A DNA stretch of 64,000 nt from Candidatus Chloroploca sp. Khr17 (lineage in GTDB: Bacteria; Chloroflexota; Chloroflexia; Chloroflexales; Chloroflexaceae), in NCBI RefSeq assembly GCF_004138165.1, contig NZ_RYFF01000023.1:1-64000 (forward strand), in the 5' to 3' direction. The position numbers and the translations under genes are program-made. This document shows, one piece after another, positions 6,147-62,012 of this stretch. The notes beneath the pieces were generated by a model, which saw only the letters and a list, made by a program, of their open reading frames with translations, ran no database searches and was not told where the DNA came from. The first letter of the stretch is position 1, and each line of letters starts with the position of its first letter.

Positions 6147-6794
6147 CTAGGTTCGTGATTTCCAATCGGCAAGAAATTGTTCAATCCCGCGATCAGTGAG
6201 TGGATGGCGCATGGCCTGTTGCAGCACCTTGAAAGGGCATGTCGCAATATCGGCCCCGGCAAGCGCCGAATCAATAATATGGCGTGGGTGGCGAATCGAC
6301 GCCGAGAGGATCAGCGTCGTAATGGCGCGATCCTGACGATAGATGGTCGCAATTTCGCGGATCAGTTGCATCCCATCAACGCCCGTATCGTCAACCCGCC
6401 CAACAAAGGGACTAATGATAAAAGCCCCTGCCCGCGCCGCCATCAGCGCCTGGGCTGCATTGAAACAAAGCGTCACATTCGTGCGAATGTCACGTTTCGC
6501 CAGTTCATAGACCGCCTTGAGACCCTCGGTGGTACTGGGCACCTTGATGATGACGTTCGGATGCCACGCGGCATATTCCAGGCCCTCTTTGATCATGCCC
6601 GGGGCATCGAGCGAGATGGTTTCGGCACTGATGGGCCCATTCACCAGCTCGGCGATCTCGCTAATCGTCTGCTGGAAATCCGCCCCCTTCTCGCGTGCAA
6701 TCAGGGTTGGATTGGTCGTGACCCCGCTCAAGATACCCCAACTCGCTGCTTCGCGAATCTCGATGAGATTCGCGGTATCCAGATAGAGCTGCAT
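6147..6794 (-). CDS. tal: small-type transaldolase / fructose-6-phosphate aldolase-like
   Basis: A 215-residue TalC/FSA-type protein that moves a dihydroxyacetone unit between sugar phosphates through a Schiff base (non-oxidative pentose phosphate pathway), or cleaves fructose-6-phosphate. The beta-barrel motifs are complete: [39 protein letters not shown] with Schiff-base Lys84, [29 protein letters not shown] and [20 protein letters not shown]. Length is normal for the short family. The ribosome site GGAGA lies a few bases upstream of the ATG. It is the first gene of a two-gene minus-strand operon with the kinase-like gene and is divergent from purL. Transaldolase and F6P aldolase activity cannot be separated with certainty from sequence alone. 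Confidence 0.92.
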
Positions 6795-6832
6795 GACGTC
6801 TCCTTTTGCGTTGCTTAGGCAACATTTTGGCT

Positions 6833-6838
6833 ATTATA
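6833..6838 (-). promoter_or_regulatory. probable -10 box of the transaldolase promoter
   Basis: The minus strand reads TATAAT here, 39 bases before the tal start codon. No good -35 box is visible at the usual distance, so the assignment rests on the -10 hexamer and position. Confidence 0.45.
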
Positions 6839-6854
6839 GCATGCTCCTCATTGC

Positions 6855-6884
6855 TTGACGGGCTTGCAACTGATCGGCTACAAT
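6855..6884 (+). promoter_or_regulatory. sigma-70-type promoter of purL
   Basis: TTGACG (6855-6860), an 18-base spacer, then TACAAT (6879-6884). The purL ATG at 6924 follows with GGAGG at 6911-6915. The predicted leader is about 30 bases, too short for a purine riboswitch. Confidence 0.6.
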
Positions 6885-6923
6885 CGCGTCCATCCTTGAC
6901 GATCCCCGCCGGAGGCAAAACCT

Positions 6924-43195: not shown

Positions 43196-44497
43196 ATGAA
43201 CAAGACCAAGTGGACACGATTCAGATCAACGTTGATCTTGCTGTGCTTCTTGCTTGTTGCCGTACTAGGCTGGGGTTGTCAACTCACCAGTACGAGTTCG
43301 TCCGAGCCAATCAAGGTTGGCATTCTCCATTCCCTGACGGGGACGATGGCCATCAGTGAACAGAGCGTGAGCCAGGCTACGCTGCTTGCTATTGAAGCGA
43401 TCAATGCCCAGGGGGGCGTGCTTGGCCGCAGGCTCGAGCCAGTCCTTCGCGACGGTGCCTCGCAGAGCGCTATCTTTGCGCGTGAGGCCGAGGCCTTGCT
43501 TGTCGAAGAAGACGTGGCCGTGATCTTCGGCTGTTGGACCTCGGCGGCGCGCAAAACGGTCAAGCCCATCGTCGAACAGTATCAGCGCCTCCTCTTCTAT
43601 CCAGTGCAGTATGAGGGCCTCGAGGCGTCACCCAACATCATCTATACCGGGGCCGCCCCCAATCAGCAGATCATTCCCACCGTCAAATGGGCGATGGATA
43701 ACCTCGGCCAACGCTTTTTCCTGATCGGCTCGGATTATATTTTCCCGCACGCCGCCAATGCGATCATGAAAGACCAGATTGGCTCGCTACGTGGCACTAT
43801 CGTCGGTGAACAGTATGTGCTGCTGGGCAGTACCGACGTCGCCGGAGCCGTCGAGGCGATTGTGCAGAGTCGCCCGCAGGTCATTCTGAATACCCTCAAC
43901 GGCGATAGCAATGTCGCCTTTTTCCAGGCCCTCCGCGCCCAAGGCATTACGCCACAGGATATCCCTACGATTTCGTTCAGCATTGCAGAAACTGAACTCG
44001 CGACGATGGGCAGCGCTGCATTCGCGGGTGACTATGCCGCATGGGGCTATTTCCAGAGTCTCGCTGGGCCAGTCAATGCCGCGTTTGTCCAGGCCTATCA
44101 GGCCCGGTATGGCGCTGATGCGGTGATCACCGACCCGATGGAGGCAGCCTATCTGGGGGTCAAGCTCTGGGCCGCTGCGGTTGAGCAAGCAGACAGCCTG
44201 GAATTCAACCGGGTACGCAATGCGCTGCACGGCCTCTCGCTTGAGGCACCCCAGGGTGCGATCAGCGTTGACCCTATAAGCCAGCACCTCTGGCGTACGG
44301 TGCGGATTGGGCAGATCCAGCCTGATGGTCAATTTGAGGTCGTCTGGAGCTCGACCAAGCCCGTGCGTCCGTTGCCCTATCCAGCCTATCGCTCGGTCGA
44401 ACGCTGGGAAGTGTTGCTCAGCGAGCTTCATACCCGCTGGCAAGGCCAGTGGCAGAATCCGTTTGCCCTCCCAACCATTATCGAGGCCGAACCATGA
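43196..44497 (+). CDS. UrtA/AmiC-like ligand-binding lipoprotein, probably sensory
   Basis: A 433-residue type-I periplasmic binding protein (Peripla_BP_5). I start at ATG 43196: the longer open frame runs through the TnpB element. The lipoprotein signal is LILLCFLLVAVLGWGCQL with Cys28. VGILHSLTGTMAISEQSVSQ, EAINAQGGVLGRRLEPVLRD, IFGCWTSAARKTVKPIVEQY and YPVQYEGLEASPNIIYTGAA match the urea/amide-binding UrtA/AmiC group. There is no permease or ATPase gene nearby. Its stop overlaps the ATG of a hybrid kinase by four bases, so a role as the ligand receptor of that kinase, like TorT-TorS or LuxP-LuxQ, is more likely than transport. Ligand: urea, short amides or branched amino acids are candidates. 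Confidence 0.88.
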   Translation: MNKTKWTRFRSTLILLCFLLVAVLGWGCQLTSTSSSEPIKVGILHSLTGTMAISEQSVSQATLLAIEAINAQGGVLGRRLEPVLRDGASQSAIFAREAEALLVEEDVAVIFGCWTSAARKTVKPIVEQYQRLLFYPVQYEGLEASPNIIYTGAAPNQQIIPTVKWAMDNLGQRFFLIGSDYIFPHAANAIMKDQIGSLRGTIVGEQYVLLGSTDVAGAVEAIVQSRPQVILNTLNGDSNVAFFQALRAQGITPQDIPTISFSIAETELATMGSAAFAGDYAAWGYFQSLAGPVNAAFVQAYQARYGADAVITDPMEAAYLGVKLWAAAVEQADSLEFNRVRNALHGLSLEAPQGAISVDPISQHLWRTVRIGQIQPDGQFEVVWSSTKPVRPLPYPAYRSVERWEVLLSELHTRWQGQWQNPFALPTIIEAEP

Positions 44498-47400
44498 TCA
44501 AACTCAAATCTATTGCAACCGAACTCGGCCTGATCTTTTTGACTATTGCCCTTGTGCCAGTCCTGATTGGCTCGATCGTCATCAATCAAGCTTTCAGCAA
44601 CGCGATGCAGCAAAAAGAGCGTGACGCCCTTGCTGAACGTGCTGATGCGGCCCATACCCGCATCGAGAGCTATGTGCTGAACATGATCCAGGATGCCACG
44701 ACCCTCGCAAACTTGCCCGACCTGCCTCCTTTGTTCGATGCCCCCCCAGGTATCATCTCCCCATCTTATGAACTCATCGCCTACCTGAAAACGTTCATTG
44801 CCGAGAAGGGCTACTACGACCTGCTGCTCATTGATCAGGGCGGGACGATCCGCTATTCGCTCAAGGCCGAGGCCGATCTGGGCCAGAATATCTACGATGA
44901 AATGCTTGGGCAGACCGAATTGGCCCGTACGATTGATGCCGCCAATACCCTCTTGCAGACCGAGGTCTCTGATTTTGGTTTCTATGCGCCCAGCAATGCT
45001 CCGGCCGCGTTCCTCGCTGCCCCGATCTTCCAAGATGGCGTCATCGTCGGCAATATCGTCTTGCAAATCGAGCCGCAGGAACTCTACGCGATCGTCAATC
45101 GCTTCGCCGGGCTCGGAACAACGGGCGAAATCCTGATGGGGGCCTATGATCATGAACGCCTGATGATCACGGTACCACCCCGGCATAACCCCGACCTGCC
45201 GCATCAAGCGCTTGACGAGGCCGCCTTTCTCCCCCTTCGCGAGGCCTTGCGGGGTGCGCAGGGTAGCGGGATCTATCCAGACTATCGCAACGAGGAGACG
45301 CTGGCCGTTTGGCGGTATCTTCCCTCGCTCAACTGGGGCATGGTCGTCAAAATTGACACCGCCGAACTCTATGCCCCGATTCGACGCAACGAGATGATCG
45401 GACACTGGATTTTGGGCGGGTCGCTCATTCTGGTCATTGGGGCAATGTTGCTCGCCAATCGGTTGATTTCCCAACCAATCATTCAGTTCTCACAGGCCGT
45501 ACGGGCCCTGCGCCATGAGCCCATGCCATCGCAGGTGCAGATCAAGGCTCGTCACGAGATCAAAGAGTTAGTGGATGATTTCAACCTCTTGATTGTTGAT
45601 GTCCGCTCAGAATTCGAGCATCTCGTGGCAGATCGCACGGGTACCATCCAAGAGAGCATGGAACGTTTTGATCAACTGGCCCGCCAGAGTCGCACCGTTA
45701 CCTGGGAAGTTGATCCCACCGGATGCTTCCGCTTCCTCAGCCCGGTCGCCGAAGAGGTCTTTGGCTATCATCCTGAGGAGATTATCGGGAAGAAGTATTT
45801 CTACGACCTGCACCCTCCCGAGGAACGTGAACGCTTTAAAACCGAGGTATTCGCGGCCTTTGAACGTCGTGAGGCTTTTGTCGATCTCGTCAATCCCATC
45901 GTTGCCAAAGATGGACACCAGATCTGGGTCGCCTCCAACGCCTTGCCAATGCTCGGCCCGGATGGTGAACTGCTTGGCTATCGTGGGACTGACACCGATA
46001 TTTCGGCTCGCAAAGCGCAAGAACAACATCTGCTTGAAACGAGTCGCTTTCATGCCACAGCCGCGAAACTCGCCACCGCCAATGCCAATCTGCGCATTGA
46101 TGCGATTGATGAGGGCATCCATGCATGCCTCGCGATTCTCGGCGAGTTTATGTCAGCCCAACGCGCTTATGTCTTCAGCAATGATTTCGCCAATGAAACC
46201 TGGTCAAACACCTACGAATGGTGCGCCGAAGGCGTGGCGTCACAGATCGCCGATCTGCAAGACGTCCCGTTTGACACGTTTCCCGGGTTGATCGAACGGT
46301 TCCAGCGTGGCGAGCTGCTCGCGCTCGGTAGCCTTGACCAGATCCCTGCCGAGATGCAGGATGCCGCTGCGCTCCTGGAGATGCAAGAGATCAAGGCAAT
46401 GATTATGCAACCAATGATCGTTGACGGTGCCTTGATCGGGTTTCTTGGGTTTGATGATACGACCCGGGAACGGGTTTTTACCAATACCGAATATGCCCTG
46501 CTCGCGCTTGCCGCCGATAATTTTGCCGCCACGCTGGCCCGTCACGGCCAGTTTATGCGCGAGAAAGCAACCAATGAGCAACTCAAGCAAACCATCGCCC
46601 GGGCCAACGAATTGGCCATCCGTGCCGAGGCCGCCAGTGTCGCCAAGTCCGAGTTTCTCGCCAATATGAGCCACGAAATTCGCACCCCCCTCAATGCGAT
46701 CATTGGCTTCCTGGAACTGGCCCTCAAGACCGACCTTATGCCCAAACAGTCTGATTACCTCGTGAAGAGCCGTTTTGCGTCGCAGACACTGCTCAGAACG
46801 ATTAACGATATTCTCGATTTTTCGAAGATCGAGGCAGGCAAGCTAGAACTGGATCATGCCCCGTTTGTGCTGGCCGAAACGCTCAACAATGTCTCGAATA
46901 TGCTCGCCGAACGAGCCGCCCTCAAGGGCATCGAATTGTGCCTTCACCTTGACCGTACAATGCCCAGGATGTTTGTGGGCGATGCCTTCCGCCTCGAACA
47001 GGTGCTGATCAATCTGGTCGGCAATGCGATCAAGTTTACCGAGACCGGTGAAGTCAATGTGCGTGCGGAACTGGCCGAACACCACGACGATCAAGTCTTG
47101 CTGCGCTTCACGGTGCAGGATACCGGTATCGGGATGGCTGCCGAGGAACGTGCCCGCCTCTTTGTTCCCTTTGTCCAGGCCGATGGCTCAATGACCCGCC
47201 GCTTTGGTGGCACCGGGCTGGGCCTCGCGATCTCACGTTCGCTTGTAACGATGATGAGTGGAACCATTGAGGTCACAAGCACGCCAGGCGAGGGCAGTAC
47301 GTTTGCTTTTACCATAGCCTGCAGGCTCGCCGATGAACAGATGCAGCCTCACCCCGATTTTGCCTTGCCCGCCACGTTGCACGGACGCAAAGCACTGGTG

Positions 47401-48945
47401 GTTGACGACAACGCGCATGCCCGTGAACTCTTGCAAGAGATGCTCCAAACGTTTCAATTTCGTGTAACGACGGCTGCATCGGGTGAAGAAGCCCTCGCCC
47501 ACCTCGAAGCAACGCCCGCCGATGACCCCTTTGCGCTCGTGCTGATGGACTGGCGTATGCCAGGGCTCGATGGCATTGAAGCAACAACCCAGATCCAGCG
47601 CAAGCTTGCCGATCGCGCGCTGCCGCTCATCATTATGGTCACTGCCTATGGCCGCGAAACAATTATGCGCCGCTCGGCAGAGGTCGGCATCGGTGCCTTC
47701 CTCACCAAGCCGATCAACGAAGCGTCGCTCTACCATGCCATCCTCGATCTCTTTGATCAGCCTGACAACCTGAACCTTCACCACGACCAAACAGCCGGGG
47801 CTACCACGATCGAAAGCTATCGCAACAACCTCATGGGCCGTCGCATCCTCCTGGCCGAAGACAGTCCCTTCAATCAACAAGTCGCGGTTGAATTACTCGC
47901 CGAAGTGGGCATCGAGGTTGCCGTGGCTTGGCATGGCCGCCAGGCGGTCGAGATGTTGCTGGGCGACGATCCAAAGCGCTACGATGCCGTCTTGATGGAT
48001 GTGCAGATGCCCGTTATGGATGGCTTCGAGGCAACCCGTACGATTCGCGAAGACGCAGCGTTGCGCGATCTCCCGATTATCGCCCTGACCGCCCACGCCA
48101 TCAGCGGCGACCGCGACCGCTGTCTGGCCGCTGGCATGAACGATTACATCAGCAAGCCGATCGCAAGCCAGCAACTCTTTCAAACCCTGCTACGCTGGGT
48201 ATCACCTGGTGAAGAACCGGGTACACTACCGCCGATCATCACAGGAAGAGCGATGTCGCCCCAAACAGACCCCGCGGAAACCGACCCGCCTGAAGCAAAC
48301 CAGGCCCTCCCAGAAACACTTGAAGGCCTCGCCATCAAGCGGGCGATCCAGCGTCTGGGGGGCAAAACCAAACTCTATCGGCAACTCATCCAGAGTTTTC
48401 TGGTTGAGCATGGCAATGATGCCGAACGCATCAAAGAGGCCCTCACGACCAATCAACCCAACGAGGCGCTGCGCATTGCACACACCCTGAAAGGCGTTGC
48501 AGGAACTATCGGGGCAACCGAATTGCACACCGAGGCCGATCGCATTGAACAGGCCCTCAAAACCGCCCCCAACGAACCACTGGATCTGAAGGCTCTGCAG
48601 CAGACCTGCACGCGTCTCAAAAACCTCTTGCCAACCCTCTTCCACCAAGAACAAGAGGAGGTGGAAACAAGGACACAACCTTTGCCGCTCCTCGATGATC
48701 AGACACGTCTCCTTGCCCAACCACAATTTGAACAATTAGCGGCTCTACTCAGCACCGGCAACTTTGCCGTCCGCAAATACCTCACCTCGCTCGAGCAAAG
48801 CATCCCTAGCCTCAGCAGCCTCCCCGAATTTCAAACCCTCGCGCGCCACGTCAACAACTTTGCCCTCGACGAAGCCCGCACCGCCCTCCCCCACCTCACC
48901 GCCCGCCTTGGCTTCACGCCTATGAACGATCCACCTGAGACATAA
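44494..48945 (+). CDS. hybrid sensor histidine kinase with two receivers and an HPt domain
   Basis: A 1483-residue membrane phosphorelay protein. ATG 44494 overlaps the stop of the upstream binding-protein gene. TM1 is about residues 10-32, then a roughly 270-residue extracytoplasmic dCache/PAS-like domain, and TM2 is about 308-328 followed by a HAMP-like segment. A PAS domain (VTWEVDPTGCFRFLSPVAEE, about 400-525) and a GAF-like domain (about 535-690) follow. The dimerisation helix has His727 (FLANMSHEIRTPLNAIIGF), then the ATPase domain (NLVGNAIKFTETGEV, GTGLGLAIS). Receivers have Asp1019 (LMDWRMPG) and Asp1169 (LMDVQMPVMDG). The HPt has His1330 (IAHTLKGVAGTIG). The final phosphate acceptor may be the REC-GGDEF protein encoded just before the TnpB element. 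Confidence 0.93.
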   Translation: MIKLKSIATELGLIFLTIALVPVLIGSIVINQAFSNAMQQKERDALAERADAAHTRIESYVLNMIQDATTLANLPDLPPLFDAPPGIISPSYELIAYLKTFIAEKGYYDLLLIDQGGTIRYSLKAEADLGQNIYDEMLGQTELARTIDAANTLLQTEVSDFGFYAPSNAPAAFLAAPIFQDGVIVGNIVLQIEPQELYAIVNRFAGLGTTGEILMGAYDHERLMITVPPRHNPDLPHQALDEAAFLPLREALRGAQGSGIYPDYRNEETLAVWRYLPSLNWGMVVKIDTAELYAPIRRNEMIGHWILGGSLILVIGAMLLANRLISQPIIQFSQAVRALRHEPMPSQVQIKARHEIKELVDDFNLLIVDVRSEFEHLVADRTGTIQESMERFDQLARQSRTVTWEVDPTGCFRFLSPVAEEVFGYHPEEIIGKKYFYDLHPPEERERFKTEVFAAFERREAFVDLVNPIVAKDGHQIWVASNALPMLGPDGELLGYRGTDTDISARKAQEQHLLETSRFHATAAKLATANANLRIDAIDEGIHACLAILGEFMSAQRAYVFSNDFANETWSNTYEWCAEGVASQIADLQDVPFDTFPGLIERFQRGELLALGSLDQIPAEMQDAAALLEMQEIKAMIMQPMIVDGALIGFLGFDDTTRERVFTNTEYALLALAADNFAATLARHGQFMREKATNEQLKQTIARANELAIRAEAASVAKSEFLANMSHEIRTPLNAIIGFLELALKTDLMPKQSDYLVKSRFASQTLLRTINDILDFSKIEAGKLELDHAPFVLAETLNNVSNMLAERAALKGIELCLHLDRTMPRMFVGDAFRLEQVLINLVGNAIKFTETGEVNVRAELAEHHDDQVLLRFTVQDTGIGMAAEERARLFVPFVQADGSMTRRFGGTGLGLAISRSLVTMMSGTIEVTSTPGEGSTFAFTIACRLADEQMQPHPDFALPATLHGRKALVVDDNAHARELLQEMLQTFQFRVTTAASGEEALAHLEATPADDPFALVLMDWRMPGLDGIEATTQIQRKLADRALPLIIMVTAYGRETIMRRSAEVGIGAFLTKPINEASLYHAILDLFDQPDNLNLHHDQTAGATTIESYRNNLMGRRILLAEDSPFNQQVAVELLAEVGIEVAVAWHGRQAVEMLLGDDPKRYDAVLMDVQMPVMDGFEATRTIREDAALRDLPIIALTAHAISGDRDRCLAAGMNDYISKPIASQQLFQTLLRWVSPGEEPGTLPPIITGRAMSPQTDPAETDPPEANQALPETLEGLAIKRAIQRLGGKTKLYRQLIQSFLVEHGNDAERIKEALTTNQPNEALRIAHTLKGVAGTIGATELHTEADRIEQALKTAPNEPLDLKALQQTCTRLKNLLPTLFHQEQEEVETRTQPLPLLDDQTRLLAQPQFEQLAALLSTGNFAVRKYLTSLEQSIPSLSSLPEFQTLARHVNNFALDEARTALPHLTARLGFTPMNDPPET

Positions 48946-48972
48946 GAAACGTTGGATTGCGCACCCCAGGCA

Positions 48973-49026
48973 TCTCTTCGAACGCTTCCGGGAAGCTCTC
49001 ATGCTTCCCGGAGGCGTTCGAAGAGA
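48973..49026. terminator. large hairpin between the kinase gene and the glucosylglycerate operon
   Basis: The arms 48973-48996 and 49003-49026 form a 24-bp stem with one internal mismatch or U-G pair and a 6-base loop. There is no U tract. A TATAAT box at 49042-49047 just downstream probably belongs to the next operon. Confidence 0.6.
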
Positions 49027-49115
49027 TGGTACAATACCCGGTATAATCCCTAAAGCCCCGGTGCAACCATGGGCCTCGGGGTCCAACGTGTACCTCACAT
49101 CATGGAGGAGCGCTT

Positions 49116-50882
49116 GTGTATGTTCCGGCATCGCCGTATCTGCTTGGCCTGGAAAACCGCATTCGGCTTCAAAAGATCCCTTTTAGCGATCGAGGCTCAC
49201 GGTTACTGATCTATCAAGAACGCCGCATTCCCGATACGCTCTATCTGAAACTGGCCGAACGCCTGACCGCCCTTACCCCCGGCCTCTCTTCATATCGCGC
49301 ACGACCACCGTTTATCTCCAATCTGCGCCTGGTTGATGCCGAGGGACGCCCGGTGCGCTTCGAGGTGACAACCTATCCCCACGCGCTTGTCTTTCAAACC
49401 CCGATCGGTGAGTTCCGGCTTGTGTTTCAAGATCATCAGACGGTCAGTTTTGGGCTCCCCAATGGGATCGCTAGTGGAATTCGCTTTACCGTCTCACCCG
49501 ATCTCGCCCGGCCAGATGCCTACGGCGGTGAGTTCAAAACGGTACGCAACTGCGCCTATTCAACCAATGGCGAATTGGTGCTCAATCAGGTGGAACATAA
49601 TGGCAGTGGCTACGATGTTATTTTAACGGCTCAGGGCGACGCCGATACGGCCATTACGCTGCATATTCAACCCGGGATGGAACTCGACCGTACCATCGTC
49701 CCGTTTCGGGCAGCGCTCGCCGCCGCCGAGGTTCGCTGGCACCGCTGGTTTGATGCCGTGCCCTCGGTTGACGAACCCTATCGTTCACAGTACTACTACG
49801 CATGGTGGGTGCTTGGTAACAATATCCTCGCGCCGTATGGCTATTTTCGCCGTGAGAGTGTCGCCCCTAGCAAGGCTCACTATGTCGGTGCGTGGCAGTG
49901 GGATAACTATTTTCACGCCCTGGCCTTTCGCTATACCGATCCCCGCCTCGCCAGCGATCAGATCCAGTTTATGCTCGACCATCAGTTGCCCGATGGCATG
50001 ATCCCCGATGCAGTCTACGATGAAGGGACGATTACCCAACTCGAGGTGCCCGTCGCCGCAGCGGTGACTAAACCCCCTATTGCCGCCTGGGTCGCCATGC
50101 TGGTCTATGCCCAGACCGGGGATATGGCGATGCTCCGTGAGATCTATGATCCACTGGTGCGCTGGAATTCATGGTGGTTTGGCCTTAATGACGATGATGC
50201 CGATGGCATTGTGCAGTATTCCCATCCCTTCTCTTCTGGCCTCGATGATAGTCCACTCTGGGATTATGGCATGCCCGTTGAAGCTGTCGATCTCAATACA
50301 TATCTTTGTTTACAGATGGAAGCTTTAGGAAAAATGGCCCGTCTGCTCGGGCGCAACCGTGAGGCCGAGCTGTGGAAACATCGTTCCGCCGCCCTGGCCC
50401 ATCGGATGATCGAGCATTTTTATGATGCCCAGCGCGGCCTCTTCTGGTCACACCATCACCATCAGCCTCTCCAGGTGATGACCCCTTTTAGCCTCTACCC
50501 GCTCTGGACAGGGCAGATGAGTCCGGCCATCAATGATCGGTTGGTCGCCCATCTCCACGATGCGGGGACTTTCTGGACGCCGCATCCATTGCCGACGGTG
50601 GCGATCAGCGATCCCCACTTCGACCCCAACCAGATGTGGCGCGGCCCCGTCTGGATCAATATTAACTATATCTTTGTCGAGGCCCTGCAACGCACTGGCT
50701 ACCGCGATCTGGCCCAAACGCTCGCCGAACGCACGCTGCGTCTAGTGATGGGGCAAAGCGATATTTATGAGTATTATCATCCACTGACTGGTGAACCGCC
50801 GCCCAAAGCAGCCCCGATGTTTGGCTGGTCGGCGGCATGTTATATTGATCTGGCGATCCGTATGAGTCGAGGGGAGATCTAG
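49116..50882 (+). CDS. GH63-like glycoside hydrolase, glucosylglycerate/mannosylglycerate hydrolase candidate
   Basis: A 588-residue protein starting at GTG 49116, with GGAGGAG five bases upstream. The N-terminal 230 residues form a beta-sandwich-like part. The (alpha/alpha)6 domain shows HYVGAWQWDNYFHALAFRYT (about 248-267), DHQLPDGMIPDAVYDEGT, and a C-terminal MWRGPVWININYIFVEALQR and EYYHPLTGEPP. The W-D-x-x-F and E-Y-Y-x-P segments carry the acidic pair typical of GH63-type enzymes such as mannosylglycerate and glucosylglycerate hydrolases. The next genes make glucosylglycerate, which supports that substrate. Annotation as a generic glycogen-debranching or trehalase-like enzyme is the alternative. 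Its TAG overlaps the GTG start of the following GT4 gene by one base. Confidence 0.75.
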   Translation: MYVPASPYLLGLENRIRLQKIPFSDRGSRLLIYQERRIPDTLYLKLAERLTALTPGLSSYRARPPFISNLRLVDAEGRPVRFEVTTYPHALVFQTPIGEFRLVFQDHQTVSFGLPNGIASGIRFTVSPDLARPDAYGGEFKTVRNCAYSTNGELVLNQVEHNGSGYDVILTAQGDADTAITLHIQPGMELDRTIVPFRAALAAAEVRWHRWFDAVPSVDEPYRSQYYYAWWVLGNNILAPYGYFRRESVAPSKAHYVGAWQWDNYFHALAFRYTDPRLASDQIQFMLDHQLPDGMIPDAVYDEGTITQLEVPVAAAVTKPPIAAWVAMLVYAQTGDMAMLREIYDPLVRWNSWWFGLNDDDADGIVQYSHPFSSGLDDSPLWDYGMPVEAVDLNTYLCLQMEALGKMARLLGRNREAELWKHRSAALAHRMIEHFYDAQRGLFWSHHHHQPLQVMTPFSLYPLWTGQMSPAINDRLVAHLHDAGTFWTPHPLPTVAISDPHFDPNQMWRGPVWININYIFVEALQRTGYRDLAQTLAERTLRLVMGQSDIYEYYHPLTGEPPPKAAPMFGWSAACYIDLAIRMSRGEI

Positions 50883-52117
50883 TGGAGACGGTGGCTATCT
50901 TGCACTACGCTGGTCCGCCCTATGTTGGTGGGGTCGAAATGACCATGGCCGCCCATGCACGGGTGCTGGCTGCCAACGGGTATGCGGTGCGTATGATGAC
51001 AGGCAAAGGTGAGGCGACTGGTTCCAGCCTTACCCAGGTGACCATCCCTGAGCTTGACTCACGTGGGGCGTTGCTTGAAACAATTGCCCGTGAGTTGGCG
51101 CAGGGCCAGGTCAGCGCGACCTTTGAGGCTCTGGTTGATCAGTTGAGTATCTGCCTCGCCGAAGCGCTCGTCGGGGTCAAGGCCCTGATTGTCCATAATG
51201 TGCTCAGTTTGCACAAAAATCTCGCTTTTACCGCTGCGCTGCACCGTCTGCACCGCAGCGGGCAGCTGCCCCCCTTGCTTGCCTGGTGTCACGATTTTGC
51301 CTGGCTCGATCCTCTGTATCTTCCCGAACTTCATGCCGGCTATCCATGGGATCTCTTGCGTCAACCATGGCCCGGGGTGCGTTATGTTGTGGTCTCGGAA
51401 GATCGACGAGGGATGCTGGCAGGTTTGCTTGGTCTTGATCCCGCCGAGGTGACGGTCGTTACCCCCGGGGTCGACCTGGCAACGCTCCTTCATCTGGGGC
51501 CTGCCACCCTGGAACTGGTCAACCGCCTCGGCCTCCTCAACGCCAATCCGCTCTTGCTCTTGCCCGCACGGATCACCAGGCGCAAAAATATTGAACTGGC
51601 GATCACGCTTACCGGAAGTTTACAAGCCTACGGGTATGCGCCCCAACTGGTCATCACCGGGCCACCAGGACCACATAACCCAGCCAATGCCGCCTACCTC
51701 GCTGAATTATTCGCCGTTCGCGAAGCCTCTGGGGCCAAGGTTGCCTTTCTCTATGAAGCCTATACCGATGCGGCAGGGCAGCCGCTGCCCGTTTCCGACG
51801 CGATGGTCGCAGATCTCTTTCGTCTGGCCGATGGGCTGCTCTTTCCGAGTCGCTACGAGGGTTTCGGCATCCCCATGCTCGAAGCTGGTCTGGTCAATCT
51901 GCCCATCTTCTGTAGCGATCTTCCGCCTCTGCGGGCGACTGCTGGCAATGCCGCCACCTATTTCCAGCTTGACGAGCCACCAGACCAGATCGCCAGGCGG
52001 ATGGCGTCCGTGTTTGCCGCCGATCCACGCACCGCCCTCAAACAGCGTGTGCGCACACACTATACATGGGAGGCGATCTTTCACCGTGAGATTGCGCCCT
52101 TGCTTGCTGATGGGTAA
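50882..52117 (+). CDS. GT4-type glycosyltransferase
   Basis: A 411-residue GT-B glycosyltransferase. The N-terminal domain opens with AILHYAGPPYVGGVEMTMAA (residues 4-23), the G-G-V-E loop that binds acceptor, and VHNVLSLHKNLAFTAALHRL. The C-terminal domain has LLLPARITRRKNIELAITLT and the donor-binding FPSRYEGFGIPMLEAGLVNL with E-x-x-x-x-x-x-E. GTG start overlaps the preceding stop. Its location between a hydrolase and a glucosyl-3-phosphoglycerate synthase suggests it acts on the same compatible solute, for example as a mannosylglucosyl-3-phosphoglycerate synthase (GT4, MggA) or as an alternative synthase. That assignment is by context only. Confidence 0.85.
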   Translation: METVAILHYAGPPYVGGVEMTMAAHARVLAANGYAVRMMTGKGEATGSSLTQVTIPELDSRGALLETIARELAQGQVSATFEALVDQLSICLAEALVGVKALIVHNVLSLHKNLAFTAALHRLHRSGQLPPLLAWCHDFAWLDPLYLPELHAGYPWDLLRQPWPGVRYVVVSEDRRGMLAGLLGLDPAEVTVVTPGVDLATLLHLGPATLELVNRLGLLNANPLLLLPARITRRKNIELAITLTGSLQAYGYAPQLVITGPPGPHNPANAAYLAELFAVREASGAKVAFLYEAYTDAAGQPLPVSDAMVADLFRLADGLLFPSRYEGFGIPMLEAGLVNLPIFCSDLPPLRATAGNAATYFQLDEPPDQIARRMASVFAADPRTALKQRVRTHYTWEAIFHREIAPLLADG

Positions 52118-52169
52118 GCCTATCACCAAGCAACTGTCGTCACAACCCTAACTACGGCGAGAGGAAAGT

Positions 52170-54038
52170 ATGACTCAGATACACAATGGAAATGGTGATT
52201 TTGTGGTGCTCATGCCAGCCCGTGACCCTGATAAGGTTCAGGTGCTGCTCCCTACCGCTACGGCCCTCGCCCATCACCACAATGGGCGTGTGATTATCCT
52301 CGGCATTGCCCAGGTGCCCGAAGGTCAGCCGTTGAGCGATGGCATGCTCGAAACTCGTCGCATCCGCGCTGGCTATGATACCCTCAGAGACCTGAATGCC
52401 TCGGGGGTTCCCGTCAGTACGATGATTATGGTGGCCCACGATCTGACCGAGGGCATTCGTACCGCCGTCAAAGAACAGGCCGCTGGGATGATTTTGCTCG
52501 GCTGGCAGGCCGATCAGTCTTCGTCAGAACGGCTCTTTGGGCCACCAATTGATACGTTGTTGCGTGAACCCCCTTGCGATGTGGTGGTGATCCGTTTGCA
52601 AGATGGCGAGCGCTGGCGCCGCGTGCTCTTGCCTGTCCGCGGTGGCCCGCATACGCCGCTGGCCTGCGAAGTCGCGCTGGCCCTGGCGGAACAGCACGAG
52701 GCCGCGATCAGTGTGCTCTATGCCGCGAATCCGCGCATGCCCGATAATGTCGCCGTGCGCGAAAGCCTCCAGGCGCTCCGGACGATGCCTCGGGTCACAC
52801 GCTGGCTCGAACGCACGATTCCTGCCGAACAAGCGATCCTTTCTGAGGCCCCTGACCATCAGGCGATTGTGCTCGGCGTCACTGGGCGTCAGGGCGATCC
52901 CGAAGCCCCCCTTGGCCCCCTTGCCGACCGGATTTTGCGCCACGCTGACACAACCGTTGTCCTCGTTCGCCACCGGATGGCCCAGGACGAAGAGCGCGCC
53001 CAACAGATCTGGCAGCAGAATCGCGATCTCTCGGCGACCGTCGATCGCTGGTTCGCCGAAAATACCTTTAGCTCCTCTGAGTTTGAAGATCTGCAACGCT
53101 TGCTCGCACTCAAGCAACAGCAGGGGGTGACGATTAGTCTGGCCCTGCCAACGCTCAATGAAGAAGAGACGATTGGGCCGATTATCGAGCAGTTGCAAGC
53201 ACAACTCGTTGCCGGAACACCAATCCTTGATGAACTGGTCTTGATTGATAGTGGCTCCGATGATCGTACCCGCGAGATCGCCGCGAGCCTCGGCGTTCCT
53301 GTCTATGCCCATCAAGAGATCTTGCCCCAGTATGGCTCCTTTGTCGGCAAGGGCGAGGCGCTCTGGAAGAGTCTCTATGTGCTCAACGGTGATCTGATTG
53401 CCTGGTGCGATACCGATATCAGGAATTTCCATCCCCGCTTTGTCTTCGGCGTGCTTGGCCCGCTGCTCCACGATCGCCGCATCGTCTATACCAAGGGCTT
53501 TTATCGTCGCCCGCTTCAGTTTGGCGATCAGTTGACCGCCAGCGGCGGCGGACGCGTGACCGAACTGACCGCACGCCCGCTCCTCAATCTCTTCTACCCC
53601 GAGCTCTCGGGCATGCTGCAACCCCTTTCGGGTGAGTATGCCGGGCGACGCACGGCCCTCGAGCAGATCCCCTTCTTTACCGGCTATGGCGTGGAAACCG
53701 GGATGCTGATCGATCTGCTCGAACGGTATGGCCTCGGTGCGCTGGGCCAGGTTGACCTGCTCGAACGGGTGCATCGCAATCAGACGCTGGTGTCACTCTC
53801 CAAGATGGCCTTTGCCATTACGCAGGTGGTCATTCAACGCATGGAACAGCGCCAGCGTGTCAGCCTGCTTGAGCCAGTGAACCAGACGATGAAGCTGATT
53901 ACGCAACGTGACGACGGCGGCTTCCACCTCGAACTCCGTGAAATTCGTGACCACGAGCGCCCAGCAATGGTGGATATCCCCGAGTACCGCCGTCTCCGCG
54001 GCCTCGAGAGTGACGCTGAACCGCGTCAGGAAGGCTAA
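52170..54038 (+). CDS. gpgS: fusion of two UspA domains with glucosyl-3-phosphoglycerate synthase
   Basis: A 622-residue protein. Residues about 10-145 and 148-265 are two universal-stress-protein (UspA) modules, with FVVLMPARDPDKVQVLLPTA, MILLGWQADQSSSERLFGPP (the G-x-x-x-x-G nucleotide-binding turn) and a second VLLPVRGGPHTPLACEVALA. From about 310 to 610 is a GT81 synthase: ISLALPTLNEEETIGPIIEQ, VLIDSGSDDRTREIAASLGV, LIAWCDTDIRNFHPRFVFG, TASGGGRVTELTARPLLNLF and GEYAGRRTALEQIPFFTGYG. GpgS joins UDP- or GDP-glucose to 3-phosphoglycerate, the first step in glucosylglycerate synthesis. GpgS is usually about 320 residues, so the UspA half is an addition that could make it respond to ATP or stress. 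Confidence 0.9.
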   Translation: MTQIHNGNGDFVVLMPARDPDKVQVLLPTATALAHHHNGRVIILGIAQVPEGQPLSDGMLETRRIRAGYDTLRDLNASGVPVSTMIMVAHDLTEGIRTAVKEQAAGMILLGWQADQSSSERLFGPPIDTLLREPPCDVVVIRLQDGERWRRVLLPVRGGPHTPLACEVALALAEQHEAAISVLYAANPRMPDNVAVRESLQALRTMPRVTRWLERTIPAEQAILSEAPDHQAIVLGVTGRQGDPEAPLGPLADRILRHADTTVVLVRHRMAQDEERAQQIWQQNRDLSATVDRWFAENTFSSSEFEDLQRLLALKQQQGVTISLALPTLNEEETIGPIIEQLQAQLVAGTPILDELVLIDSGSDDRTREIAASLGVPVYAHQEILPQYGSFVGKGEALWKSLYVLNGDLIAWCDTDIRNFHPRFVFGVLGPLLHDRRIVYTKGFYRRPLQFGDQLTASGGGRVTELTARPLLNLFYPELSGMLQPLSGEYAGRRTALEQIPFFTGYGVETGMLIDLLERYGLGALGQVDLLERVHRNQTLVSLSKMAFAITQVVIQRMEQRQRVSLLEPVNQTMKLITQRDDGGFHLELREIRDHERPAMVDIPEYRRLRGLESDAEPRQEG

Positions 54039-54045
54039 CGCAACG

Positions 54046-55779
54046 ATGCACGCGACCTCTCAAGACCGGATCGAGGCGCTGCTCGCCTCACTCTACGGGG
54101 CAGACGTGGGCCAGCAAACCAGTCAGCGCTTGCTGACCATGCTTCAGGCCTATGCTATCCGCTGCCCCCAACCCGGCCCGGCCCGCCCTCTCGATGAACG
54201 CCTGGCCGCCGACGATATCATCCTGATTACCTACGGCGATCAGTTCCGCGAGCCAGAACGCACGCCGTTGCAGAGCCTGGCCTCGGCGCTGGACGGTCCT
54301 TTTGCCAATATTGTCAGTGGCGTTCACATCCTGCCCTTCTATCCCTCCACCTCTGACGATGGCTTCTCGGTGGTTGACTATACGGCCGTTGACCCTGCGC
54401 TCGGCACCTGGCACGACATTGAGGCGTTACGGGCCAGGTATCGCCTGATGTTCGATGCTGTGGTCAATCATATTTCGGCCAGTAGCACCTGGTTTCGCGA
54501 TCTGCTCGCTGGCGTGCCCGGTGCCGAGGCACGTTTTATCAGCCTCGACCCCAACACTGATCTCCGCCAGGTCACCCGCCCCCGCGTCACGCCACTCCTG
54601 ACGCCCTTCAAGACGCCGATGGGGGTGCGGCATATTTGGACAACCTTCAGTGCCGACCAGATCGATCTCAATTTTGCCAATCCCGACCTCTTGCTCGAGA
54701 TGACCGCCGTGCTGCTGGAGTATGTCGCCAAGGGTGCCAGTTTGATCCGGCTTGATGCCATCGGCTATTTGTGGAAGGAGGTCGGCACACGCTGCATCCA
54801 TCTCCCCCAGACCCATCAGGTCGTCCAACTCTGGCGGGCGGTACTCGATCACGTCGCCCCCGATGTGCTACTCATCACCGAGACCAACGTGCCCCATGCC
54901 GATAATGTCAGCTATTTCGGCGACGGTAGCAACGAAGCCCAACTTGTCTACCAGTTCCCGCTGGCCCCCCTGGTGCTGCATAGCATCGCAACCGGCGACG
55001 CCCGTCAACTCAGCGGCTGGGCCGCCGGGTTAAGCCTGCCATCGTCAACGACAACCTTCTTCAACTTCCTCGCCTCGCACGACGGCATCGGCGTCGTGCC
55101 GGCAACAGGCATCTTGAGTCAGGCGGAGATCGGGGCGCTCTGTGGCCAGATCGAGCGCCATGGGGGGCGCGTCTCGTACAAGTCCAACCCCGACGGCTCG
55201 CAGAGTCCCTACGAGATCAATAGCACCTGGTTCGATGCGCTCTCTGACCCAGCGAGCGACGAACCGATGACCCGCAAAATCGACCGCTTCATCGCCTCAC
55301 AAGCGATCATGCTGGCCCTCCAAGGCGTCCCCGGGGTCTACATCCACAGCCTGGTCGGCTCAGGCAACGATCACGCCGGCCTACAAGCGAGTGGCATCCA
55401 CCGACGACTCAACCGCGAAAAATGGGGTCTCGCCGAACTAACGGCGCGGCTCGCCGATTCTACCCGACGTGAAGGAACGGTGCTCGCACGCATGGCGCAC
55501 CTCATCCGCACCCGCCGCGCTGCACCCGCCTTTCACCCCAACGGCAGCCAACAGATCCACAATCTCGACCCCGCCATCTTCGCCGTCGAACGCCACGCAC
55601 CCGACGGCAGCCAGCGGATCCTCTGTCTCCACAATGTCAGCGCCACAACCCGGCAAGTCAACCTACCAACGGATCCAACCTGTACCCTGCTCGATCTGAT
55701 CAGCGGCAGACCCGTCACCCTCACCGGCTCAACGTGTACCCTAGAACCATACCAGGTACGCTGGCTCACCGTGAGCTAG
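54046..55779 (+). CDS. GH13_18 phosphorylase, glucosylglycerate phosphorylase candidate
   Basis: A 577-residue member of the sucrose-phosphorylase subfamily of GH13. ATG 54046 follows TCAGGAAGG, 7 bases after the gpgS stop; the longer frame lies inside gpgS. Conserved regions are HILPFYPSTSDDGFSVVDYT, MFDAVVNHISASSTWF, SLIRLDAIGYLWKE with the nucleophile Asp, VLLITETNVPH with the acid/base Glu, and FNFLASHDGIGVVPATGILS with the third Asp. Subfamily members split sucrose, sucrose-6-phosphate, glucosylglycerate or glucosylglycerol with phosphate. Next to GpgS, glucosylglycerate phosphorylase is the best guess, giving glucose-1-phosphate and glycerate. Together with the GH63-like gene the operon would have two routes of breakdown. 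Confidence 0.85.
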   Translation: MHATSQDRIEALLASLYGADVGQQTSQRLLTMLQAYAIRCPQPGPARPLDERLAADDIILITYGDQFREPERTPLQSLASALDGPFANIVSGVHILPFYPSTSDDGFSVVDYTAVDPALGTWHDIEALRARYRLMFDAVVNHISASSTWFRDLLAGVPGAEARFISLDPNTDLRQVTRPRVTPLLTPFKTPMGVRHIWTTFSADQIDLNFANPDLLLEMTAVLLEYVAKGASLIRLDAIGYLWKEVGTRCIHLPQTHQVVQLWRAVLDHVAPDVLLITETNVPHADNVSYFGDGSNEAQLVYQFPLAPLVLHSIATGDARQLSGWAAGLSLPSSTTTFFNFLASHDGIGVVPATGILSQAEIGALCGQIERHGGRVSYKSNPDGSQSPYEINSTWFDALSDPASDEPMTRKIDRFIASQAIMLALQGVPGVYIHSLVGSGNDHAGLQASGIHRRLNREKWGLAELTARLADSTRREGTVLARMAHLIRTRRAAPAFHPNGSQQIHNLDPAIFAVERHAPDGSQRILCLHNVSATTRQVNLPTDPTCTLLDLISGRPVTLTGSTCTLEPYQVRWLTVS

Positions 55780-55811: not shown

Positions 55812-55855
55812 TGCACCAGGCAGGGCAGCGCGTACGCGCTGCCCTGCCTGGTGCA
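55812..55855. terminator. 44-bp perfect palindrome after the glucosylglycerate operon
   Basis: The two 22-base halves, starting TGCACCAGGCAGGGCAGCGC, are exact reverse complements with no loop. As RNA it would be a long hairpin without a U run. It lies just after the phosphorylase gene. The region to 56015 holds no gene. Confidence 0.65.
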
Positions 55856-56015
55856 ACATTTCCCGCACAATGTTCGTTGTATAACTAGGTCGCCTTGTAC
55901 GTAAGCCAAGGTTTCAAGCTATGGTACAGTTCGAAGGCGTGCATCGCATGCTGATGCGGTCGGCTCTACTTCCTATTTTCTACTTCCTAACTGCTTGTCG
56001 AAGGAGAATCTCATC

Positions 56016-56591
56016 ATGGGCGGATCTCTCATCTTTATCCTCTTGATCGTCATCGTCCTGGCCGGTGCTGTCACGTTCCTGGTGCTCTACAACAGCCTGA
56101 TTGGCAAACGCAACCAGGTTGATCAGGCCTTCGCCAGCATTGACGTGATGCTCAAAAAACGCTACGACCTGATCCCGAACTTGATCGCGACCGTGCAAAC
56201 CTATATGGGCCACGAACGCGCCTTGCTGACTGAATTGACCGAACTGCGCACGCGGGCAATGGCCGGGGATATTACCCCCGAACAACGCGTCGCGACCGAG
56301 AATCAGATCAGTGGCGCCATTGGGCGTTTGATGGTGTCAGTCGAGAATTATCCCGATCTGAAATCCAGTCAGAACTTCTTGCAACTTCAGGCCAGCCTAA
56401 ACGAGACCGAAGAGCAGATCTCGGCCTCACGGCGCGCCTACAATGCGGCAGTCACCGACTACAATAATGCCGTGCAGATGGTGCCGACCAATATCATTGC
56501 CGGCATGATCGGGATGCAGCCCCGCACCCTCTTTGTGGCCGCCGAAGCCGAGCGCCGCAACGTTGATGTGCAGAGCATGTTTCAGAGGTAA
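56016..56591 (+). CDS. LemA family protein
   Basis: A 191-residue membrane protein. I prefer ATG 56016, which has AAGGAG 9 bases upstream, over an earlier TTG. The N-terminal helix (about residues 4-26, LIFILLIVIVLAGAVTFLVL) anchors it. The rest is a helical domain with the family pattern NQVDQAFASIDVMLKKRYDL then IPNLIATVQTYMGHER, and SENFLQLQASLNETEEQI-like near the middle (here SSQNFLQLQASLNETEEQI), ending in TLFVAAEAERRNVDVQSM. The LemA function is not settled. Only 5 bases separate it from a DUF3137 gene, a pairing common in bacteria, so the two probably work together in the cell envelope. Confidence 0.95.
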   Translation: MGGSLIFILLIVIVLAGAVTFLVLYNSLIGKRNQVDQAFASIDVMLKKRYDLIPNLIATVQTYMGHERALLTELTELRTRAMAGDITPEQRVATENQISGAIGRLMVSVENYPDLKSSQNFLQLQASLNETEEQISASRRAYNAAVTDYNNAVQMVPTNIIAGMIGMQPRTLFVAAEAERRNVDVQSMFQR

Positions 56592-56596
56592 CGGCT

Positions 56597-57601
56597 ATGA
56601 CTGATCATACGACAACGCTTGCATCACTCTACGAGCGCGAGTTGCGACCTATTGCAACCGAACTTGAGCAGCATCGGCGTAGTGTGCGTCAACGTGCGAT
56701 GGTCGTAGGGCTAGGCCTGTTTGGCGGCACAGCCCTCCTGCTCCTCCTTAGTCTGATCATCGTGCCCACAAGCTTCTTCTTCTTCGTTGCCTTTGGCCTC
56801 ATTGCCCTTGCCGTTGTTGCCTGGAATGCCCTTATGAATGGAGCGTTTCAGAACTATCGCCGCTCCTTCAAAGACAATGTGATCACCCGCCTCGTCAAAC
56901 TGGTTGACGATTCATTGCAGTACGCCCCGGGTCAGGGCATCTCCCGGGAAGAGTTCCGCACTAGCCAGTTGTATACCCACGGCATCGACCGCTACAAGTG
57001 CGAAGATCTCTTTTATGGGCTGGTCGGCGCAACGGATATCCGCTTTTCCGAGATCCACGCCGAATACAAGCAGACGTCAACCGACTCAAAGGGCAATACG
57101 ACCACAACCTACCACACCATTTTCAAAGGCGTCTTCTTCATTGGCGATTTTCACAAGGATTTTCTCGGCCAGACGATCGTTATGCCAAGTGGAGGCAGTG
57201 GTCTCCTGGCCGACTTCGGGCGCACGCTGCAAAACTTTGGCACAACGCTGATCGGTCAGGGTGACCGCATCGTCCAGCTTGAAGACCCTGAGTTTATGGA
57301 ACTCTTCTCGGTGCGTTCCACCGATCAGGTCGAAGCACGGTATATTCTTTCCACAAGCCTAATGCGCCGCCTGATCGAGTTCCGCACCCGCCTCAACACA
57401 CCAATTGCGGTCTCATTTATCAATTCCAACATCTACATCGCGATCCCGACCACCAAAGACCACTTCGAACCACCCGGGCTCTGGTCGGGCAATGCGCAAC
57501 TCTCGATGCAACAATTCGAGGCCTACCTCGAAGATATTCGCCTCGCCGCAGCGATTGTCGAGGATCTCAACCTCAACACCCGCATCTGGAGCAAGCAATA
57601 G
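56597..57601 (+). CDS. DUF3137 family membrane protein
   Basis: A 334-residue protein with two adjacent helices (about residues 36-80) near the N-terminus and a large C-terminal domain. DRYKCEDLFYGLVGATDIRF, SEIHAEYKQTSTDSKGNTTT, TIFKGVFFIGDFHKDFLGQT and VQLEDPEFMELFSVRSTDQV match DUF3137, a galanin-like/PH-domain-like family commonly next to lemA. The function is unknown. It is the second gene of the lemA operon; GTAACGGCT is all that separates the stop and start. Two short imperfect repeats and relics follow the gene. Confidence 0.88.
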   Translation: MTDHTTTLASLYERELRPIATELEQHRRSVRQRAMVVGLGLFGGTALLLLLSLIIVPTSFFFFVAFGLIALAVVAWNALMNGAFQNYRRSFKDNVITRLVKLVDDSLQYAPGQGISREEFRTSQLYTHGIDRYKCEDLFYGLVGATDIRFSEIHAEYKQTSTDSKGNTTTTYHTIFKGVFFIGDFHKDFLGQTIVMPSGGSGLLADFGRTLQNFGTTLIGQGDRIVQLEDPEFMELFSVRSTDQVEARYILSTSLMRRLIEFRTRLNTPIAVSFINSNIYIAIPTTKDHFEPPGLWSGNAQLSMQQFEAYLEDIRLAAAIVEDLNLNTRIWSKQ

Positions 57602-60545: not shown

Positions 60546-62012
60546 CTACTTCAGCACCAACTCACCCCGTGCATGCAGTTCCTGAACTCTCGGCAACATT
60601 TCGGGCGTGGCTAGCACCAGCAGATGATCATCAGGCAGCAGCACCGTTCCGCCATTGGGAATCAACAACTCTTCACCGCGTTGGATCTGCACCACCAGCA
60701 AGCCCCGCGGCAGATCGAGCTGAATCAAGGATTTGTTGACCACCGACGAGTCCGCAGGCACCACAATATCAAGCATACGACTACGCAGGCTCACATCAGG
60801 CACATAGGTCTGCGTCTCAGGTGGGCGTGGACGATCCGCATTGAGCTTGAGCCACCGTGCAACATGGCTGATCGTCATCCCCTGGAGCAAGACCGAGACA
60901 AGCACGATAAAAAAGACGAGGTTAAAGATCATCCCTGCGTGAGGCACCCCAGCAATCAAGGGAAAGGTCGCCATCACAATCGGCACAGCCCCGCGCAAGC
61001 CCGCCCACGAAACCATCAAGATCTCGGCGGGGCCACGACGAAACCAGATCAGCGAGGCAAAAACACTCAGTGGCCGCGCCACAAAGGCGAGAAAGAGCGC
61101 CAGCAACAACCCGCTTCCCGCCACCGGAATGAGTTGCGAAGGAAAGACAAGCAATCCGAGCGTCAAGAACATCGCAATCTGCATCAGCCAGGCAATGCCA
61201 TCATGAAAGCGCAGGATCGAACGCTTATGCACCAGATTATAGTTGCCAATGACAATGCCAGCCAGATAAACCGCCAGAAAGCCATTGCCCCCAATCAGTG
61301 ACACGAGCGCGTAGATCAGCAGGATCAGACCGAGCGTCAAGACAACATACAAACCCTCTTGCTGGAGGCGAATGCGGTTAATGATCACCACCGCTAACCG
61401 GCCAAGTCCATAGCCACCCAGGGCACCGAGACTCATTTGCAGCAGAAAACTGGGCACCAGATCAAGCAGCGAGCCATTGGGGTTGAGCAGCAAACCGGTC
61501 AAGCCGAGCGTCAAAAAGACGGCAATCGGATCATTCGAGCCCGACTCAAGCTCAATCAGCGGCTCCAGATTATGCTGAAGATTGACGCCGCGCTCGCGCA
61601 TCACGGCAAAGACTGCGGCAGCGTCGGTCGAAGAGACAATCGCTCCGATCAAAAGCGCTTCGAGCAAACCAAACCCGAGCAACCACATGGCAAAAAGGCC
61701 CACAATGGCCGCGCTCAACAAGACCCCAAGGTTCGCCAGCACCAGACCCTGCCCAAGCACAGGCCGGATGGCCTTCCAATCAGTATCGAGGCCCCCCGAA
61801 AAGAGGATGTAGATCAGCGCGATCACGCCAACCGTCTGGGCAAGTTGATAATCGGCAAAGGCAATGCCCCCGGGACCCTGGCTACCGGCCAGAATGCCAA
61901 TCGTTAAAAAGAGGATCAACCCCGGCACACCAAACCGATTCGAGGCACGCGTGGCAATAATGCTCAAGATGAGCAGGCCCGCCGCGATGAGCAACGTCCA
62001 TTCTATGCTCAT
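60546..62012 (-). CDS. CPA1-type potassium/sodium-proton antiporter (CvrA/NhaP2-like)
   Basis: A 488-residue membrane protein with about 12-13 helices followed by a C-terminal TrkA-C/RCK-type regulatory domain (about 410-488: MLDIVVPADSSVVNKSLIQL, then GTVLLPDDHLLVLATPEML). The transport core carries the CPA motif LFSGGLDTDWKAIRPVLGQG and the S-S-T-D-A-A-A motif in LIGAIVSSTDAAAVFAVMRE, then ELESGSNDPIAVFLT with the paired Asn-Asp. YhaU/CvrA and NhaP2 have this layout and expel K+ or Na+. Its ATG overlaps the stop of the upstream KefB-like gene by four bases, so two different antiporters form one operon. Confidence 0.9.
   Translation of the reverse strand: MSIEWTLLIAAGLLILSIIATRASNRFGVPGLILFLTIGILAGSQGPGGIAFADYQLAQTVGVIALIYILFSGGLDTDWKAIRPVLGQGLVLANLGVLLSAAIVGLFAMWLLGFGLLEALLIGAIVSSTDAAAVFAVMRERGVNLQHNLEPLIELESGSNDPIAVFLTLGLTGLLLNPNGSLLDLVPSFLLQMSLGALGGYGLGRLAVVIINRIRLQQEGLYVVLTLGLILLIYALVSLIGGNGFLAVYLAGIVIGNYNLVHKRSILRFHDGIAWLMQIAMFLTLGLLVFPSQLIPVAGSGLLLALFLAFVARPLSVFASLIWFRRGPAEILMVSWAGLRGAVPIVMATFPLIAGVPHAGMIFNLVFFIVLVSVLLQGMTISHVARWLKLNADRPRPPETQTYVPDVSLRSRMLDIVVPADSSVVNKSLIQLDLPRGLLVVQIQRGEELLIPNGGTVLLPDDHLLVLATPEMLPRVQELHARGELVLK

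Follow-up and report, generated by a model that had tools for sequence, protein, structure and literature searches.

The DNA analysed here, hereafter the window, is a 64,000-nucleotide (nt) stretch of Candidatus Chloroploca sp. Khr17 (contig NZ_RYFF01000023.1). Positions 49116–55779 carry four genes, all on the plus strand, and one of these joins two Usp (universal stress protein) domains to a glucosyl-3-phosphoglycerate synthase, GpgS. The first gene (49116..50882, GTG start) encodes a GH63/MGH1-like glycoside hydrolase (GH) of 588 amino acids (aa). It is followed by genes for a 411-aa GT4 glycosyltransferase (GT; 50882..52117, GTG start), the 622-aa Usp-Usp-GpgS fusion (52170..54038, ATG start) and a 577-aa GH13_18-like protein, the putative glucosylglycerate phosphorylase (54046..55779). 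A first-pass annotation had described four genes set together with overlaps or short gaps. The coordinates confirm this; the GH63-like and GT4 genes overlap by 1 nt, the fusion follows after 52 nt and the GH13_18 gene after a further gap of 7 nt.

The start of the GH13_18 gene required a choice. The frame is open from a GTG at 53908, and the first 46 residues read from there overlie the 3′ end of the GpgS coding sequence and the bases just beyond. The ATG at 54046, 7 nt past the GpgS stop, gives the 577-aa product. Because the orthologue at locus L042 is also 577 aa long, and opens 8 nt past its own GpgS stop, the ATG is likelier to be the start. Neither chance nor misassembly explains the fusion, since relatives have it too, with their genes in the same order. 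Identity of the fusion protein reaches 98% with its Ca. C. mongolica counterpart and 97% with the one in Ca. C. asiatica.

Residues 290–603 of the fusion match the GpgS model NF010496 with 366.2 bits, above the cut-off of 262; the corresponding bases (53037..53981) score 368.5 bits. In fold, the domain matches the Rubrobacter xylanophilus enzyme MpgS (3o3p, Z 39.0) and mycobacterial GpgS (Z 34 to 36). An AlphaFold2 (AF2) model of the whole fusion has a mean pLDDT of 88 and a pTM of 0.64. We collected homologues as the best 80 of 582 matches, a set biased to close relatives and unfit for estimating a share of the phylum. Alignment A2 holds 62 hand-chosen fusion rows, without L059, L062, L070, L072, L076 and the degenerate paralogue L077 of alignment A1. 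The genomes of L059 and L070 recur among the 80 relatives, and only that of L059 is in A2, as L104. In all 62 rows the DxD residues D414 and D416, the GGRVT acceptor loop (G460–T464) and the metal-loop histidine H535 are kept. Roles for the DSD motif, Val186-Thr187 and His258 of GpgS have been described (PMC2581804, in the available text), and in our alignment DxD, GGRVT and His535 read as their counterparts. The domain would make glucosyl-3-phosphoglycerate from NDP-glucose, with either GDP- or UDP-glucose as the candidate donor. The paralogue L077 (8358-10250, genome G316) is a second Usp-Usp-GpgS-like protein. It has neither DxD nor GGGRVTEL, scores 122 bits against the NF010496 cut-off of 262, and is likely a pseudo-enzyme that has retained its Usp pair.

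The tandem Usp module, with a linker helix, occupies fusion residues ~1–289 (52170..53036), as supported by Pfam, the AF2 model and structural matches. PF00582 (Usp) matches in two stretches with 72.4 bits (cut-off 24), and the fold also matches the Usp superfamily. The best structural matches are tied, with VIA Z scores of 19.8 for 3g40, 19.4 for 3loq and 19.1 for NKCC1/KCC3. The first-pass annotation had correctly identified the fusion of two Usp domains to GpgS, and had suggested that solute synthesis could be coupled to ATP or stress signals. ATP coupling through the classical Usp motif, G-2x-G-9x-G(S/T), is unsupported. The motif is canonical in 3 of the 62 rows and degenerate in the other 59, and the second Usp domain of the window protein reads G-2x-G-9x-G-P. 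At the motif positions of this second domain, all 62 rows have the first Gly and 57 have the last; Pro occupies the S/T position in 35 rows, and Ser or Thr in 11. ATP may still be a ligand, as some Usp proteins bind it despite a degenerate motif (PMC3673472, in the available text). The c-di-AMP motifs of the KdpD type, SXS-X20-FTAXY and (A/G/C)XSXSX2N (taken from the accessible parts of PMC4686210 and PMC8214093), were each found in 0 of the 62 aligned fusions.

We then asked how common the fusion is. In this survey, and in that of Actinomycetota below, only the best few candidates per genome were scored. At E 1e-40 or better, the GpgS model matched 117 of 400 genomes in the phylum sample, 115 of them above the cut-off. 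These genomes hold 118 GpgS places; all but one (117) fall within open frames of at least 480 aa, and the exception is a second copy in a 309-aa frame. The full-length protein, used as a query, reached the Usp part (query residue 127 or lower) in the same 117 genomes, with alignment starts judged by eye in the matches listed. The first-pass annotation took the arrangement to be undescribed, and would have abandoned the idea had such fusions proved common. A limited search of Creative Commons (CC)-licensed literature indeed returned no description of it. Rarity, however, must be dismissed, since nearly every GpgS in the phylum sample is fused.

Outside the phylum, the picture differs. GpgS was matched in 151 of 296 genomes of the Actinomycetota sample, mostly in frames below 500 aa among the matches listed. 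Frames of at least 560 aa numbered 23 among those matches, by a manual count, and Usp was present in 10. Three of these (G423, G424 and G433) were known beforehand to be fused; the other 20 were examined and seven contained Usp. In the remaining 13, the window Usp query found no Usp at E 1e-3, a search that a divergent Usp could escape. None was found in 30 loci (L191–L220) of the same sample. In the Deltaproteobacteria sample, GpgS was found in 6 of 148 genomes, and the only fused case is G425, the genome for which that phylum was sampled. A tree of 93 GpgS domains (50 fused, 43 unfused) needs two changes, which we read as the fusion being gained once and lost once, in the nested L189. The tree was built in quick mode from 93 of 161 sequences, with the fused rows hand-chosen and all 43 unfused rows kept, and has several long branches. 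Nested within the Chloroflexota rows are others titled Actinomycetota, Deltaproteobacteria, Acidobacteria and so on, which points either to later spread of the fused gene or to mislabelled bins. Far from being a local accident, the fusion is long established in the Chloroflexota lineage and is the norm for GpgS in the phylum sample.

Probable genes for synthesis and recycling of glucosylglycerate, a sugar acid that protects against salt, stand together in the cluster, as the first-pass annotation had stated. The GH13_18 protein scores 200 bits with TIGR03852, below the cut-off of 334. It carries both fingerprints of glucosylglycerate phosphorylase (GGaP), which a 2020 review gives as (T/S)ETN at strand 5 and a Glu in loop A (PMC7178133, in the available text); the first takes the form TETN in the window protein. 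Among 30 different GH13 rows, the loop-A Glu is present in all 30, TETN in 29 and SETN in one. We infer that the protein is a glucosylglycerate phosphorylase.

The GH63-like protein matches PF22422 with 240 bits. It scores 93.4 bits with the GgH model NF047898 (cut-off 550) and 126 with the alpha-glucosidase model NF007525 (cut-off 625). By these scores, it is kin to the mannosyl- and glucosylglycerate hydrolases and not a member of the GgH family. Two regions align with Thermus thermophilus 2z07, and the Asp and Glu within them are presumably catalytic. Both patterns are present in 28 of 29 GH63-like homologues, a count in which same-genome duplicates were kept. Its candidate role is to hydrolyse glucosylglycerate or some derivative. 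The window GT4 protein matches PF00534, and a sequence search with it gave no hit among solved structures at E 0.001; E326 and E334 are invariant in 38 aligned rows of its family. A His_Phos_1 phosphatase next to the fusion at locus L058 matches the solved phosphatase GpgP (4pz9, E 2.9e-24), and other phosphatases score higher. A role for it in the pathway is likely. The window genome has six matches to the L058 phosphatase, the best at 41% identity, and none is on the contig of the window.

The surroundings of the fusion were compared in two sets. In 41 neighbourhoods (the window and 40 relatives), a GT4 homologue lies beside the fusion in 34, and all four genes occur in the window order in 10. 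The second set comprised 79 named loci, 75 of which have more than 700 nt of upstream sequence. Within 300 nt upstream of the fusion, 52 loci have GT4, nine have a GT resembling MGS and 18 have neither. Within 300 nt downstream, 15 have a His_Phos_1 phosphatase, four have GH13, one has an antiporter and 59 have none of these. At L071, L079, L128, L134 and L139 a GT homologous to that of L079 (PF21969, MGS_GT) lies upstream of the fusion and replaces GT4; it is possibly an alternative second sugar step. Locus L156 was counted under the MGS-like GT, as its whole 1026-aa frame scores best there, and this leaves the 79 loci. This single open frame (5849-8929) contains an MGS-like glycosyltransferase and Usp-Usp-GpgS, perhaps as a three-part fusion. 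Antiporter homologues directly adjoin the fusion in L069, L073 and L074 (confirmed by Pfam for L069).

We consider that the locus is probably a glucosylglycerate-centred compatible-solute operon, in which the committed enzyme has inherited the Usp module as a regulatory domain. Gene order, domain identity, catalytic residues, phosphorylase fingerprints, conservation in the phylum sample and the tree are observed; the enzymatic reactions, elongation by GT4, the part of the phosphatase and any regulation are inferred. The GpgS domain would transfer glucose from NDP-glucose to 3-phosphoglycerate, and an unlinked histidine-type phosphatase would then strip the phosphate. The GT4 enzyme would probably attach a further sugar to glucosylglycerate. 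After stress, the phosphorylase, and probably the GH63-like hydrolase, would break the solute down. The Usp module, which belongs to the type found at the C-terminus of APC-superfamily transporters, would most likely modulate GpgS activity or assembly upon a small ligand or a stress state. The pathway in this scheme is well supported by sequence, and a regulatory role for the Usp module is plausible.

Several observations weigh against this reading. The GT4 enzyme falls below the cut-off for MggS, and the GH63-like protein below that for GgH. Many loci have no GH63 or GH13 nearby, and the 18 loci mentioned above have neither GT4 nor an MGS-like GT directly upstream. The pTM of the AF2 model makes the arrangement of the fusion domains uncertain. 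A nested GpgS, L189, has no Usp module, and no Usp frame is found in the 1.4 kb upstream of it. The Usp domains vary far more than GpgS (mean pairwise identities 0.29 and 0.31, compared with 0.64), and weaker Usp matches in frames of ~290–350 aa resemble free tandem Usp proteins.

The first alternative concerns the end product. It could be a trisaccharide acid, such as mannosylglucosylglycerate or glucosylglucosylglycerate, made by an MggS-like GT4 enzyme and trimmed by the GH63-like enzyme. We rate this somewhat short of an even chance. GT4 is the most constant neighbour of the fusion (52 of 79 loci), and the MGS-like GT takes its place in a further nine. Only two models, TIGR04047 and the MggS model NF041101, were matched by all 38 members of the GT4 family (E 1e-5), and NF041101 covers the N-terminal half of the three GT4 enzymes examined. 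However, the window enzyme scores just 43.5 bits with NF041101 (residues 4–248 of 411; cut-off 640) and 45 bits with TIGR04047 (cut-off 260). TIGR04047 outscores NF041101 in all three enzymes examined, which sets the family apart from MggS proper. The expected substrate of the phosphorylase, moreover, is glucosylglycerate itself. The first-pass suggestion that GT4 is a candidate for elongation is nonetheless supported at that level.

The second alternative concerns the Usp module. Given how variable the Usp domains are, the module may be dispensable or have a purely structural role. The module would then be a structural or dimerisation domain with no ligand and no regulatory role, and we regard this as possible but rather doubtful. 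The degenerate ATP motif, the missing KdpD-type motifs, the low identity among Usp domains and the one loss on the tree are all in keeping with it, and Usp proteins form stable homodimers (PMC3673472, in part). Conversely, almost all GpgS proteins of the phylum sample carry the module, and R66, G158 and G236 of the module are invariant in 62 of 62 rows. Its relatives point the same way. Among the matches listed, the best-scoring non-GpgS Usp hits in the phylum are in frames of ~770–1100 aa. Seven of these were checked, together with one protein from the window's own genome; of the eight, six have a permease domain and three have DUF389, one having both. Usp modules on transporters are regarded as regulatory. 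In L179, L180 and L183, Usp pairs (a single stretch in L183) are joined to DUF389 within the same phylum, and one of these loci is in the genome of the window.

A GT4 enzyme also takes part in the methylglucose lipopolysaccharide pathway of mycobacteria, and this counts towards a third alternative. That the cluster initiates a long methylated polysaccharide of this type, and not a small solute, is very improbable: GpgS is a key enzyme of that pathway (PMC2581804, in part), but the named conserved neighbours (phosphorylase, hydrolases, phosphatase, GTs and antiporter) fit a solute that is turned over, although no scan for methyl- or octanoyltransferases was made.

A compatible-solute operon with an inherited regulatory domain is the reading we favour. 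A regulatory domain inside the committed enzyme would offer a testable allosteric control point, and Usp-GpgS would give a handle on what tandem Usp domains sense. If it holds, glucosylglycerate or one of its derivatives should be produced by many Chloroflexota; a limited search of the CC-licensed literature subset found no report of such production.

A more specific version of the regulatory role is unlikely on present evidence, and is put forward as speculation. The Usp module might serve both GpgS and APC-superfamily transporters as a shared allosteric sensor, with an adenine-type second messenger as its ligand. If so, one signal would set both osmolyte synthesis and solute or ion transport, and a tandem Usp domain would directly gate a compatible-solute enzyme in most GpgS of a phylum. 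The nucleotide c-di-AMP is a candidate ligand for three reasons. A diadenylate cyclase domain is encoded in the genome (144 bits), which is weak support, since 11 of 14 control genomes also have one. Every aligned fusion retains the first Gly of its nucleotide loop, as does c-di-AMP-binding KdpD (PMC8214093, in the available text). Finally, two adjoining cation:proton antiporter genes lie on the minus strand ~5 kb 3′ of the cluster (60546-62012 and 62009-63988). Both encode TrkA-C domains and one also encodes TrkA-N.

The cluster is flanked by inverted repeats. A 26-nt repeat (96%) lies on the 5′ side at 48971..49028, and a perfect 22-nt repeat on the 3′ side at 55812..55855. These possibly mark the ends of a transcription unit. 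A terminator scan of the cluster gave one site, compared with a mean of 4.5 in shuffled sequences, and listed neither flanking repeat. Just 5′ of the cluster, a plus-strand gene (44449-48945) encodes a large hybrid histidine kinase with Cache, PAS, GAF, HisKA, two receiver and Hpt domains. The same kinase adjoins the cluster in two other Chloroploca genomes. Directly 3′ of the cluster is a LemA and DUF3137 gene pair (55995-57601, plus strand). No tRNAs were found within the window.

Some parts of the cluster resemble characterised systems. The catalytic domain shares ~39% identity with R. xylanophilus MpgS and mycobacterial GpgS, and all of the motifs checked are kept. The solved GpgS and MpgS chains (326–387 aa) match the GpgS part alone, and the fusion adds the N-terminal tandem Usp module. 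The cluster shares with those of the GGaP enzymes of Meiothermus silvanus, Spirochaeta thermophila and Escherichia coli a GH13_18 protein with (T/S)ETN and the loop-A Glu, with GpgS nearby (PMC7178133, in part). Unlike those clusters, it adds GT4 and GH63-like genes, and its four genes include no phosphatase or glycerate kinase. Compared with MggS, all 38 operon GT4 enzymes match the family model, yet the window enzyme lies far below the curated cut-off. The Usp module shares its fold with Rv2623 (3cis, by Foldseek), TTHA0350 (3ab7, Z 18.8) and AF1760 (3loq, Z 19.4). These are free tandem Usp proteins, and the fusion module differs from them in its degenerate ATP motif. Among the relatives followed up in the phylum, the best-scoring are the C-terminal Usp modules of amino-acid permeases, and the tied structural matches include the cytoplasmic domains of cation-chloride cotransporters (prokaryotic 3g40, NKCC1 and KCC3). 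Whereas the permease and cotransporter modules sit on a transporter, that of the fusion sits on a soluble enzyme. Na+/H+ antiporters, chloride channels, amino-acid permeases and kinases are listed as multidomain proteins with Usp domains whose ligands are still to be found, and glycosyltransferases are absent from this list in the available text of PMC8214093.

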